This document shows, piece after piece, positions 15,254 through 49,154 of a stretch of 64,000 nucleotides of DNA. Within the stretch, counting starts at the first letter, position 1. Every line of letters starts with the position of its first letter. The notes beneath the pieces are model-generated. The model worked only from the letters and a program-made list of their open reading frames with translations. It ran no database searches and had not been told where the DNA came from. The position numbers were made by a program, and so were the translations under genes. Source of the stretch: Ferrimonas lipolytica (lineage in GTDB: Bacteria > Pseudomonadota > Gammaproteobacteria > Enterobacterales > Shewanellaceae); assembly GCF_012295575.1 (NCBI RefSeq), contig NZ_CP051180.1:1488001-1552000 (forward strand), written 5' to 3'.

Positions 15254-15545
15254 GGCTGTGTACCAATTAAGTGTTGTTCTTTCTAATAAAGTTAAAGCAC
15301 TGGCTAGGCGAGTCGCGAGACAAAGAAGAAAGCACTACCGCTATTGATCTTCTGCCGCATTGGAGCAGTCGAGCGAAGGGTTTTGGACAGCGACCTAATG
15401 CAAGGGGATTGCAAAGGGGGCGAAGCTCCCCCTTTTGCATACAAGAATGTGCCGTCGTCTCCGCGACATAGCCCCTTAAGAGTACTGCAATCGGTACAGC
15501 CGAAGGCTTGATATAAACCTCAACACTTAACTGTGTGACACAGCC
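15254..15545 (+). mobile_element. MITE-like repeat, copy A (full length, 292 bp)
   Basis: Non-coding element with inverted ends: left GGCTGTGTACCAATTAAGTG, right end reading GGCTGTGTCACACAGTTAAG on the opposite strand. Flanks ATATAAAA (15246-15253) and ATAAAAAA (15546-15553) match 7/8, as expected of a target duplication. The right end abuts the A-tract of the serS terminator hairpin. It holds an internal G5/C5 hairpin near 15411-15438. The 66-codon ORF inside is not conserved in other copies. Five related copies are in the window (17140, 36478, 40004, 45536, 48888). Confidence 0.85.
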
Positions 15546-15546
15546 A

Positions 15547-15577
15547 TAAAAAAGGGAGAAGCTAACAAGCTTCTCCC
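15547..15577 (-). terminator. serS terminator
   Basis: GGGAGAAGC (15554-15562) pairs with GCTTCTCCC (15569-15577). On the minus strand a T-tract follows, at whose end MITE copy A is inserted. Confidence 0.85.
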
Positions 15578-15596
15578 TTCAATTCTGTAACCGGTA

Positions 15597-16886
15597 TTAA
15601 CCGATGTGCGTTAAGCCACCCATGTAGCTTTGTAATGCCTGCGGCACTTCAATACGACCATCTTCAAGCTGGTTGTTTTCCAGCACTGCTACCAAGGTAC
15701 GACCTACGGCCAAACCAGAGCCGTTTAAGGTGTGTAATAGTTCAGGCTTCTTGCTGCCTTGACGACGGAAACGAGCCATCATACGGCGAGCTTGAAAATC
15801 CATCATGTTAGAGCATGAGGAGATCTCGCGGTAGGTGTTTTGGCTAGGTACCCACACTTCCAAATCGTAGGTTTTGGCAGAGCCAAAGCCCATATCGCCA
15901 GTACACAGAATCACTTTACGGTAAGGCAGTTCCAATAACTGCAGAACTTTTTCTGCTTGGCCAGTCAGTTGCTCTAGCGCTTCCATTGAATCTTCTGGCT
16001 TAACCAGCTGAACCAATTCAACTTTATCAAACTGATGCTGACGGATAAGACCACGGGTATCACGACCAGCACTGCCTGCTTCTGAGCGGAAACACGGGGT
16101 GTGAGCAGTCATCTTCACTGGTAACTGCGATTCGTCGAGGATCTCGTTGCGCGCAAAGTTAGTCAGTGGCACTTCAGCGGTTGGGATCAACGACAAACGA
16201 CGGTCGTTGTCTTCACCCAGCTTTTCGGTGTGGAACAGGTCTTCACCGAATTTAGGCAGCTGGCCAGTACCATACAGGCTATCTGGGTTTACCAAATACG
16301 GAACGTACATTTCGGTGTAGCCGTGCTCAGTGGTATGTAAGTCCAGCATAAACGCAGCTAAGGCACGGTGCATGCGAGCAATTTGACCACGCATAACAGT
16401 AAAGCGAGCACCGGATAGCTTTGCGCCCATGGCAAAATCTAAGCCATTCAGTGCTTCGCCTAGATCAACGTGATCCTTAACTTCAAAGTCGTATTGCTTT
16501 GGGGTGCCCCACTTCAACACTTCGACATTTTCGTCTTCATCTGCGCCAACTGGTACATCTTCCGCTGGCAGGTTTGGAATTGCAGCAGCAACGCTATCAA
16601 TTTCTGCCATTAACGCGTTCAAATCAGATTTTTTCTGATCCAGCTGTTCGCCCATGTTAGATACTTCTGCCAACAATGGGGCAATGTCTTCCCCACGTGC
16701 TTTTGCCTGACCAATCGACTTAGAACGACTGTTTCGATCAGCTTGTAACTGTTCGGTTTCAACCTGTAGCGACTTACGGCGCTCTTCTAATTCATTAAGG
16801 CGAGTCACATCAAGGATGAAGCCACGGCTCGCTAATCGCTCAGCGATTTGCGCTACGTCATTACGCAAAAGTTTGCTATCTAACAT
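15597..16886 (-). CDS. serS: Seryl-tRNA synthetase
   Basis: Charges tRNA-Ser with serine; cytoplasmic class II synthetase, 429 residues. The N-terminal long coiled-coil arm that grips the tRNA variable arm spans about residues 30-100. Class II motif 2 is in [20 protein letters not shown] and motif 3 in [16 protein letters not shown]. The ATG at 16886 gives the usual [10 protein letters not shown] start. Its own terminator lies 20 bp after the stop. A tRNA-Ser gene is also in this window at 63.7 kb. Confidence 0.97.
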
Positions 16887-17036
16887 ATTCGAATTTTCTT
16901 TTGTATGTGGTTGGTAAGACTTAACTTCAGGTAAATCACTCTACCTAAATAAAAGTCCTCAACAGGAATTCCATATTGTTAAGCGATTTTATCACAGAAA
17001 GCATGATGCATACATCACGACGACCGGTGCGTCGCC

Positions 17037-17549
17037 TCACATATATCCAATCGCCAATGGCATTTGCGCGAGTATAAATATTGAGACAATCACAGCGACT
17101 GCAATCGGCTCTGCCCCGCTAATAACAACGATAACAAATGGCGCTATCGCAGTTGAGTGTTGAGGTTTACATTAAGCCTTCGGCTCTACCGATTTCGGTG
17201 TTTTTGGGGACGATGTCGCGGTGGCGACGGCACATTCTTGGGCTTTGTCGTAGTTAGCTGTTGAGATTTACCTCAAGCTTTTGGCTGTGGTGTTTGAGAG
17301 GCTCGATGTCGCGATGCCGACCGCAGATTCTTGTATGCATTAGCGGGGAGCTTCGCCCCCTTTGCAATCCCCCCTTGCCTTAGGTCGCATTCCAAAACGC
17401 TTCGCTGGACTGCTTCAATGCCGCAGAAGAACAACACTTAGTGGGTAAATAGCCTAACAAATGGGCGCCAATAGCTGGGAAAGTTATTGTTGCCATTGCG
17501 CTTAACGCCCAGCAACAGAATAACCGCGCGATAAAGTTGAAGCCGCTTA
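17037..17549 (-). pseudogene. Possible membrane-protein remnant split by MITE copy B
   Basis: If the MITE (17140-17454) and one copy of its 8-bp target duplication are removed, the minus strand reads one open frame from the crcB end to a stop at 17037-17039: about 31 codons upstream (including RAVILLLGVKRNGNNNF) join about 35 codons downstream (FVIVVISGAEPIAVAVIVSI, FILAQMPLAIGYM). The downstream part is strongly hydrophobic, like a transmembrane helix. No start codon is evident before the crcB stop, and another frame of the upstream part is also hydrophobic, so this may be a truncated gene end or chance. Not assignable to a family. Confidence 0.3.
17140..17454 (-). mobile_element. MITE-like repeat, copy B (315 bp, degenerate, internally duplicated)
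   Basis: Flanked by a perfect 8-bp direct repeat TAACAAAT (17132-17139 and 17455-17462). Ends are degenerate: GGCGCTATCGCAG at left and AAATAGCC at right. The terminal segment of about 95 bp occurs twice in tandem (from about 17149 and from about 17243), each with a CTTCGGC/CTTTTGGC block and a GATGTCGCG block. It keeps the internal GGGGAGCTTCGCCCCC hairpin core. Opposite orientation to copies A and C. Confidence 0.8.
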
Positions 17550-47424: not shown

Positions 47425-47621
47425 GCTTCCTTCCTGATATTGTTGCCCATTTCCAGCGCCCAATGTCTATGACGCTAACCTTAATGTCAAGCTTACGTTC
47501 CAGTTGTTAACGATAGGGCGACATTACAGCTTTGGCTGCAACATCGCTCACTGGTAAGGTGCGTCCGTAATCAAAACATAAGGGCAATACGCCCACTAAT
47601 AAATGGCATGGAGTAAGCACG

Positions 47622-48656
47622 GTGGCGATATTTTCAAATCCATCATTTGACCAACACGAAAAAGTGTTGTTTGTATCGGACGAAGCATCTGGCTTAAAGG
47701 CGATTGTAGCCGTTCACGATACCACCATGGGGCCAGCGGTTGGGGGCTGTCGCATGTGGCCATATGCCAGTGATGAAGAGGCCATTACTGATGTGTTGCG
47801 CCTATCTCGAGGTATGACCTACAAAAACGCCTTAGCGGGTTTGCAATTCGGTGGCGGTAAGTCAGTGATCATTGGTGATCATCGCACCGATAAGTCGGAC
47901 GAACTGTTTCGTGCCTTTGGTCGCGCTATCGACGCCTTAGGGGGGGTGTACTACTCTGCTGAAGATGTGGGGATCACCACCGCAGACATCATGACCGCCC
48001 ACCAAGAGACCCCTTACATGATGGGACTTGAAGGTAAGAGTGGCGATCCATCCCCTTACACCGCGCTGGGCACATTCCTCGGCATTAAGGCGGCAGTAAA
48101 ATACCAACGTGGCGTCGATGACCTAACTGGCATCAAGGTGGCGGTACAGGGACTAGGGCATGTAGGTTATTACCTGTGTGAACACCTGTACCAAGCTGGC
48201 GCCGAACTGATTGTCTGCGATCTCAACGACACCCAGTTAGAACGAGCTAAACGCGAACTCAACGCTACCGTTGTTGGCCTAGATGAGATCTATAGTCAAG
48301 AGGTCGATGTTTACGCCCCTTGTGCATTAGGCGCCACCATTAACGACATAACCCTACCGCAACTTAAAGCAACCATCGTTGCCGGTTGCGCTAATAATCA
48401 GTTGGCGGAGTTGCGCCATGGAGAGCAGTTACGCGACCGAGGAATTTTGTACGCGCCGGATTACGTCATTAATGCCGGCGGCATCATCAATGTTTCATTT
48501 GAGCGTGACTACAATGCCGACGCGGCCGAGGCCAAGGTGCGTAAGATCTATCAAACACTACTTGATATCTTTGCCAAGGCCGATGAAAGCGGGCAAACCA
48601 CCGGTGTAGTTGCAGACGAAATGGCCCGAGCGATCATTGCCGCTAATCGTAGCTAA
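47622..48656 (+). CDS. Leucine dehydrogenase (Glu/Leu/Phe/Val dehydrogenase family)
   Basis: NAD-dependent oxidative deamination of branched-chain amino acids to 2-oxo acids. 344 residues; GTG start with GGAG 9 bases ahead. Catalytic lysine region GLQFGGGKSVIIGD (about 72-85) and ALAGL before it, conserved Asp region YYSAEDVGITTADIM, NAD-binding VAVQGLGHVGYYLCEHL and the typical GCANNQL segment. Its length and motifs fit Leu/Val dehydrogenase rather than the longer glutamate dehydrogenase. Terminator follows. Confidence 0.92.
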   Translation: MAIFSNPSFDQHEKVLFVSDEASGLKAIVAVHDTTMGPAVGGCRMWPYASDEEAITDVLRLSRGMTYKNALAGLQFGGGKSVIIGDHRTDKSDELFRAFGRAIDALGGVYYSAEDVGITTADIMTAHQETPYMMGLEGKSGDPSPYTALGTFLGIKAAVKYQRGVDDLTGIKVAVQGLGHVGYYLCEHLYQAGAELIVCDLNDTQLERAKRELNATVVGLDEIYSQEVDVYAPCALGATINDITLPQLKATIVAGCANNQLAELRHGEQLRDRGILYAPDYVINAGGIINVSFERDYNADAAEAKVRKIYQTLLDIFAKADESGQTTGVVADEMARAIIAANRS

Positions 48657-48680
48657 AGCCGATTGCATCACTAATAACGA

Positions 48681-48706
48681 AAGAGCCCTTTGGGGCTCTT
48701 TTTTCA
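48681..48706 (+). terminator. Leucine dehydrogenase gene terminator
   Basis: AAGAGCCC-TTTG-GGGCTCTT stem followed by TTTT. The remaining gap to 48887 shows no gene. Confidence 0.9.
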
Positions 48707-48887
48707 GTTGTGAAGTCGGTGTTATTGCAGCGAATACTGCTGAGCCACCAGCTCGGCGAATTGCAACACAAACAACCAAGTGCTGACTCCTTTCAGTTAA
48801 TGGGTCGGCGACATGACTGCTGCAAATCACAATCGTTGTTAGCAGCGAAGACTTAAGACAAGTCTCAGCAAGTTATCGCATCGATTG

Positions 48888-49154
48888 GGCTGGGTCACAG
48901 TTAAGTGTTGAGGTTTATATCAAGTCTTCGGCTCTACCGATTGTGGCGTTTGAAAGGGGGGATGTCGCGGTGGCGACGGCACCCAAAGGGGAGCTTCGCC
49001 CCCTTTGCCGTAGGTCGCAGTCCAAAGCTCGTCGCTGAACTGCTCCAATGCGGCAGAAGATCAATAGCGGTATTGCTTTATCCTTTGTATCGCGACTCGC
49101 CTAGCCAGTGCTTTAACGGCCTTGGAAAGAACAACACTTCGTTGCTACACAGAC
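48888..49154 (-). mobile_element. MITE-like repeat, copy F (about 267 bp)
   Basis: Left end GGCTGGGTCACAGTTAAGTG, right end TACACAGAC. The interior matches copy A in reverse, including the intact GGGGAGCTTCGCCCCC hairpin core (near 48989-49005) and the CATTGGAGCAG block. No 8-bp duplication is visible in the flanks (ATCGATTG versus TCTTTTAT), so it is older or rearranged. It is not next to a terminator hairpin. Confidence 0.8.

Follow-up and report, generated by a model that had tools for sequence, protein, structure and literature searches.

The window examined here, a stretch of 64,000 bases from the single-contig genome of Ferrimonas lipolytica (bases 1488001-1552000 of 4,133,133 bp; genome G000 below), contains six copies, A to F, of a short non-coding element. 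We read them as members of a miniature inverted-repeat transposable element (MITE) family of the IS1595 type that is concentrated in the T-tracts of transcription terminators, and put the probability of this joint claim at roughly 0.93. Four of the copies abut terminator hairpins: A lies behind serS (named from its Pfam domains), C behind clpA, D between a cold-shock gene, which we take to be cspD, and an isocitrate dehydrogenase-type gene ('icd'), and E behind purB (Table 1). An earlier note on this DNA had described six elements with common ends at these positions, and they were found there, with flanks that match as it had claimed (7/8 for A, 8/8 for B, 6/8 for C, 8/8 for D and 7/8 for E). 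The shared ends are present in all six, although in B the outermost bases, GGCGCTAT and GGCTATTT, have drifted further than that note's title suggests; B has TAACAAAT on both sides (8/8) and no strong hairpin adjoining. For F, the flank comparison gives 1/8, with no recognisable target duplication. At the gathering score, an Rfam search of the window yielded only a tRNA; the sub-threshold matches near A, of which the best has an expect value (E) of 0.0026 and 24.4 bits (gathering score 128), were judged to be chance.

Table 1. Element copies, their duplications and structured cores, and the adjoining hairpins and genes (window coordinates; HMM, profile hidden Markov model; R1, covariance model of the core).
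Feature	Position	Strand	Remarks
Left duplication of A, ATATAAAA	15246-15253		7/8 match to right duplication
MITE copy A	15254..15545	+	full length, 292 bp; recovered by HMM
Structured core of A	15354..15469	+	R1
Right 8-bp target duplication of A, ATAAAAAA	15546..15553		T-tract of serS terminator, - strand
serS intrinsic-terminator-like hairpin	15554..15577	-	abuts A duplication; -17.5 kcal/mol in 30-nt window
MITE copy B	17140..17454	-	left end, deletion of about consensus 24-87, duplicated right segment
Structured core of B	17306..17424	-	R1
Left duplication of C, ATTAAAAA	36470-36477		6/8 match
MITE copy C	36478..36768	+	full length, 291 bp
Structured core of C	36577..36694	+	R1; among the 12 sequences R1 was built from
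Right target duplication of C, CTAAAAAA	36769..36776		T-tract of clpA terminator
clpA terminator hairpin	36777..36799	-	abuts copy C; -13.0 kcal/mol
clpA gene	36835-39129		named from Pfam domains
Cold-shock gene	39661-39870		PF00313
Terminator hairpin between cold-shock gene and 'icd'	39976..39995		directly before D duplication
Flanks of D, TTTTTATT	39996-40003 and 40141-40148		8/8
MITE copy D	40004..40140	-	internally deleted, 137 bp
Isocitrate dehydrogenase-type gene ('icd')	40164-41417		
Adenylosuccinate lyase gene purB	44127-45500		Pfam
Hairpin behind purB	45510..45527	+	directly before E duplication; -13.9 kcal/mol
Left duplication of E, TTTTTTTT	45528-45535		
MITE copy E	45536..45740	-	internally deleted, 205 bp; flanks 7/8
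MITE copy F	48888..49154	-	267 bp; recovered as full length by HMM
Structured core of F	48962..49054	-	R1; among the 12 sequences R1 was built from

Copy number, ends and target duplications

The description of a six-copy family holds within the window but not genome-wide, where the right end occurs 190 times. This count comes from a 28-nt right-end pattern (up to three mismatches), which gave no match in its control or in the 13 Ferrimonas congeners used for comparison, among them the sister species (G010) and Ferrimonas futtsuensis DSM 18154 (G008). The end pattern GGCTGTGTN{3,7}TTAAGTGTTG has 101 matches in G000 against 0 for its reversed control, and a core hairpin pattern (up to two mismatches) has 234 in G000, 34 in G010 and 0 in the remaining 115 of 117 genomes. 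These numbers suggest about 190-230 recognisable copies in G000, some of the core matches being without element ends. Searches beyond chromosomes found no copy on plasmids or phages (blastn, one copy as query) or in viral contigs (a single exact pattern). A profile HMM built from 30 oriented genome copies, copy A included (mean pairwise identity 0.88), has a consensus of 291 nt with 23-nt inverted ends, GGCTGTGTACCAATTAAGTGTTG / GGCTGTGTCACAGTTAAGTGTTG, and without a long reading frame. In the window it recovers A, C and F at full length and B, D and E as copies with internal deletions or rearrangements.

Insertion sites were studied in 113 stretches of G000 (364,862 bases), a sample that is non-random because most stretches were selected for high-scoring copies. 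The HMM gave 148 matches in them, and the 106 full-length ones together with three partial copies of the window make up the 109 insertions analysed. The 8-bp flanks are identical in 41 of these and match at 7/8 in a further 26, so that 67/109 reach at least 7/8, against 3.3% under random pairing. Exact flank matches number 41 at a length of 8, 6 at 7 and 2 at 9, and flanks displaced by 10, 20 or 30 bases exceed 5/8 in only 2 of 327 comparisons. The duplications are 88% AT; farther out the content is 53-55%. At two places (G000:C1:909486-910299 and 2085121-2085676) copies stand head to tail with one AT-rich spacer of about 8 bp between them, an arrangement that would be expected if a new copy enters the T-tract that an older one has duplicated.

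Relation to IS1595-family insertion sequences

The earlier note had proposed non-autonomous elements with inverted ends and 8-bp duplications, moved in trans, which is supported by the duplications and by a decayed IS1595-family insertion sequence (IS) elsewhere in the genome. It had left the transposon family unassigned and suggested looking for an IS with the same ends. The 8-bp duplications are confirmed, IS1595 can now be proposed from the similarity of the ends, and the search for such an IS led both to the decayed copy and to an intact relative in F. futtsuensis. A search of G000 for the IS1595 transposase domain (PF12762) gave a single match, interrupted by two stops (28.4 bits; cut-off 27), in an element of 1,029 bp with ends GGCTGTGTCTTAATTAGCTGTTG / GGCTGTGTTTGAGTTAACTGTTG and flanks TATTAAAA/TATTAAAG (7/8). 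Its end is 78.8% identical to the right end of the MITE over 33 nt (E 0.002), the left ends are alike at 67% over 58 (E 0.04), both alignments being weak, and the left-right order is the same; with IS1595 ends of the same genus, the likeness spans about 20 bp at both ends. The intact IS of F. futtsuensis is 1,023 bp long, with no stops, a transposase of 315 amino acids (aa) and the target duplication CTTTTTTG; it is 75.3% identical to the decayed copy over the whole length and has ends of the same kind, which, like those of the decayed copy, resemble the MITE ends but are not identical to them. Among the four intact relatives scanned, PF12762, NF033547 (184-196 bits; cut-off 75) and the N-terminal zinc-binding model NF050000 scored above cut-off in all, and the Pfam model PF12760 appeared in two, below its cut-off. 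Relatives with GG-starting ends and 8-bp duplications account for 22 rows from 110 loci tried, in a search that itself demanded GG and flanks of at least 7/8 and cannot measure how general both features are. A further IS1595 element was seen in Shewanella gaetbuli (L068 993-2593 / L250), with 1,601 bp, perfect 23-bp ends and a 131-aa passenger frame in addition to the transposase.

Derivation of the MITE from the IS by internal deletion was ruled out, the alignment being confined to the ends. Judging from the similarity of those ends, the partner of the MITE is very probably an IS1595-family insertion sequence, perhaps of the ISSod11 group, whose transposase would move the MITE in trans. The MITE could instead have been mobilised by some other family that makes 8-bp duplications, since several are known to do so and the PF12762 search left G000 without an intact IS1595 partner; we consider this very unlikely, given that each MITE end is similar to IS1595 ends from this genus for about 20 bp, in the left-right order of the decayed copy.

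Insertion behind terminator hairpins

Many of the copies sit in T-tracts just 3' of hairpins that look like intrinsic terminators. A hairpin was called strong if it reached -8 kcal/mol or less directly beside the duplication. Such hairpins stand beside 54% of the 82 AT-rich duplications; among 1,500 AT octamers taken from intergenic DNA as controls the share is 15% (p 3e-16 for the energies by Mann-Whitney test), and insertions in T- or A-runs abut them in 41 of 56 cases (73%), compared with 14% of 923 controls (p 8e-19); both p values are approximate, because the control octamers, drawn from the same stretches, overlap one another. Hairpin and insertion are in register: among the 83 sites whose flanks match at 6/8 or better, 45% have the hairpin at offset 0, and its frequency falls to 0-10% once the window is moved by 15 nt or more in either direction. 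When the 28 upstream bases are shuffled, a hairpin is found in 6.5%. Elements lie in either direction with respect to the T-strand, with no clear bias (26 versus 18). One hairpin plus T-tract is left intact after insertion, as read from the sequence, and 87 of the 109 insertions fall in no frame of 80 aa or longer once the element has been excised from the sequence. Some IS relatives are at similar sites: in F. futtsuensis (two sites), Azotobacter chroococcum, Dactylopiibacterium and an Azonexus metagenome-assembled genome they occupy T- or A-runs next to strong hairpins and have perfect 8-bp duplications; in two further F. futtsuensis rows the upstream flank is too short to judge.

There is, in our estimate, a somewhat better than even chance that the IS1595-type DDE transposase actively selects terminators, that duplication of the T-tract regenerates them, and that such a safe site let the MITE, with its captured repeat, reach about 200 copies. 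The transposase, or the structure of DNA or of transcription at terminators, would then direct integration behind the hairpin, perhaps through recognition of hairpin and T-tract as a cruciform, or at a paused or terminating RNA polymerase. Because the eight duplicated bases are the T-tract, the hairpin would keep a T-tract after insertion and the upstream gene should keep its terminator. Insertion behind a terminator is thus probably harmless, and a nearly neutral insertion would allow hundreds of copies.

The main competitor to such targeting is survivorship, in which the transposase takes any AT-rich 8-mer and mainly those insertions that spared genes and terminators persisted. The AT content of the duplications fits this explanation, as do the scarcity of insertions in reading frames, the intact terminator that a T-tract duplication leaves behind, and the 13 of 18 IS sites in relatives that lie away from strong hairpins; the pneumococcal repeats, too, are read as tolerated near gene 3' ends (PMC3049150). 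Survivorship would have more difficulty with a hairpin in register with the insertion, with the strong under-use of other AT-rich intergenic positions (73% versus 14%), and with F. futtsuensis, where the two IS sites whose upstream flank can be read are both at terminators. We hold it to be possible but distinctly less likely than targeting by the transposase.

Sites without the element in congeners

The earlier note had asked for empty sites in related genomes. At the site of D, the 'cspD'-'icd' interval is free of the element in all seven congeners with readable synteny (L319-L325); it measures 73-153 bases in four of them and is short by eye in the other three, and in the remaining 6 of 13 the gene motif of the site was not found, which leaves the interval unreadable. 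Two of these seven, G010 and G009, have a second terminator before 'icd' that was recognised by eye as the counterpart of the hairpin adjoining D. The 26 congener loci around serS and clpA gave zero HMM matches at E up to 1, whereas the same HMM did recover the copies in the two corresponding loci of G000. The serS terminator is present and uninterrupted in G010, and the terminators trailing clpA are uninterrupted in 13 congeners, where the neighbouring gene differs. A clean empty site for A and B was unobtainable because the gene order differs in the congeners.

A structured core in the interior

The interior of the element contains a core of about 117 nt, described by the covariance model R1, which has at least 150 matches in G000, 36 in G010, 25 in G005, 5 in G002 and 1 in G003, and none in the nine other congeners; in each genome 150 of at least 2,000 candidates were scored. 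A smaller model of its two hairpins, R2, was run under strict filters, scoring no more than 34 candidates in any genome; it has matches in 7 of 14 genomes of Ferrimonas and in 0 of 128 others from the same bacterial family. For the sister species G010, 23 core loci were examined, two of them being one place; seven places have IS1595-type ends with flanks of 7-8/8 and lengths of 275-618 bp, several of them adjoining strong hairpins, and the rest have weaker end pairs or none. Core hairpin 2 of window copy F resembles the form in this species. No convincing IS1595 ends were found at 19 core loci of G005, G002, G003, G006 and G013, where the few low-scoring end pairs (one of them flanked at 7/8, in G003) have unrelated ends and are read as chance.

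The simplest reading would be that a structured repeat of genus level was captured between IS1595 ends, although the reverse, escape of the structured repeat from a MITE, is possible. Looking for the core as the end of another transposon, we saw by eye no transposase frame beside it in three loci (L311, L317, L312). Repeats without IS1595 ends occur in G000 itself, where about seven tandem units of MITE interior (175-190 bp each, consensus about 40-227) lie at G000:C1:1003359-1004753 (L143, L332); that array adjoins a gene with cytochrome-like CxxCH motifs, noted by eye. An intergenic repeat of about 215 nt in G005 (L098, L103, L111, L122) and G003 (L100) has several hairpins with GGA loops and ends in the two hairpins of the MITE core, several copies following soon after a terminator. 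Long core-bearing variants in G010 (L214, L215, L218, L224, L225) have extra hairpins with loops CAGGATG, CATGGAT and CAAGGAG, whose ANGGA motif we take to resemble the binding loops of CsrA/RsmA. In G018, from another genus (g2) of the same family, a hairpin like core hairpin 2 stands beside GGATG-loop repeats in an intergenic region (L041); R2 reported nothing in that genome, with 34 candidates scored.

One rival reading takes the elements for a structured RNA family conserved by position, with no transposon involved. Across species, pairing is kept in 96.5% of the cells in the paired columns of both hairpins, compared with 43-59% in slid controls, a figure for which the structure was derived from the same alignment. 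Changes on both sides affect only three pairs, a number reached by 120 of 500 shuffles; the cells with such changes (nine) and the covariation score are above every shuffle. Folding exceeds that of shuffled sequence in some cores, with z-scores of -5.7 (L040), -3.4 (window copy F) and -2.9 (L043); for L003 (-1.7) and L042 (-0.4) the difference is not clear. For the whole element, however, a position-conserved RNA, which the earlier note had named as a refutation of its view, is contradicted by the target duplications, by copy sets private to one species, and by the absence of the element at site D in the seven readable congeners and at the serS and clpA sites; we regard it as very improbable. 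As for the core, the MITE may carry it as an RNA or a DNA structure, but the insertion sites are not defined by it.

Discussion

Several observations weigh against an IS1595-type MITE concentrated at terminators. Mobility of the MITE is read from its sequence, and G000 has no intact IS1595 element by a search confined, among transposase families, to PF12762. The MITE end TTAAGTGTTG differs from those of the decayed IS (TTAGCTGTTG / TTAACTGTTG), and this copy therefore need not be the partner; MITE and IS are alike at their ends only, with interiors that do not align, and the recovery of ends with duplications from the IS1595 loci was low. As to the sites, window copies B and F lie outside terminator T-tracts, and 22 of the 109 insertions are inside frames of at least 80 aa, which include spurious ones. 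Among 18 distinct IS1595 sites with a readable flank, the 13 that are not T- or A-runs beside a strong hairpin include all eight whose transposase is at most 48% identical to the query, as well as the decayed IS of G000 itself, and the overlap of the control octamers must be counted here as well. Amplification would seem to have ended in G000, since the sole IS1595 copy found there is broken.

Terminators are known as targets of another kind of element: group IIC introns insert next to intrinsic terminators and are not known to have inverted ends or an 8-bp duplication. They share with the MITE the choice of target, but are retroelements acting through RNA. The IS1595 family, as described in the accessible part of PMC8101967, has the DDE_Tnp_IS1595 domain, an N-terminal zinc-binding domain, GG-starting ends, 8-bp duplications and a length of about 1 kb; the MITE differs in that it has no transposase and shares the ends only, and a concentration in terminator T-tracts is unmentioned in that part. 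IS1595 elements are over-represented between co-oriented genes, according to PMC9208149. A similar non-autonomous IS1595 derivative is the MITE of Haloquadratum walsbyi (ISHwa6; 165 bp, 7 copies, inverted repeats of 25, direct repeats of 8; PMC3852290), which is archaeal and has 7 rather than about 200 copies, with neither a structured core nor a terminator preference described in the section available. The BrickBuilt element of Porphyromonas gingivalis is MITE-like too; it reportedly trapped a repeat, and 10 of its 19 copies are flanked by predicted rho-independent terminators and/or polyadenylation sites (PMC4596501). Yet it has only those 19 copies, other ends and duplications of varying length, and in the example given there the terminator is tens of bases off rather than abutting. 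Short, folded, intergenic high-copy elements with unrelated ends include Correia (>120 copies), ERIC (711 in Photorhabdus luminescens) and Chunjie, according to excerpts of PMC10969869, and the pneumococcal SPRITE, which is enriched near gene 3' ends and, unlike the MITE, is itself terminator-like rather than inserted in a T-tract (PMC3049150, likewise in part).

The earlier note was thus right but understated, having missed that there are about 200 copies, that insertions are concentrated in terminator T-tracts, and that the interior has a structured core. A search of titles and abstract openings found no description of this MITE family, of a Ferrimonas MITE or of terminator targeting by IS1595. 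The element is of a known kind, an IS1595-type MITE, and what is new, within the literature searched, is its concentration in terminator T-tracts. A large family of orphan repeats is hereby tied to a named transposase family, and its sites follow a simple rule: the element enters the T-tract that trails a terminator hairpin, and that T-tract is duplicated. If this rule is the transposase's own, it would constitute a natural gene-sparing system of DNA integration, with an apparently intact transposase for direct testing, and would help to explain how a compact bacterial genome came to hold hundreds of MITE copies.

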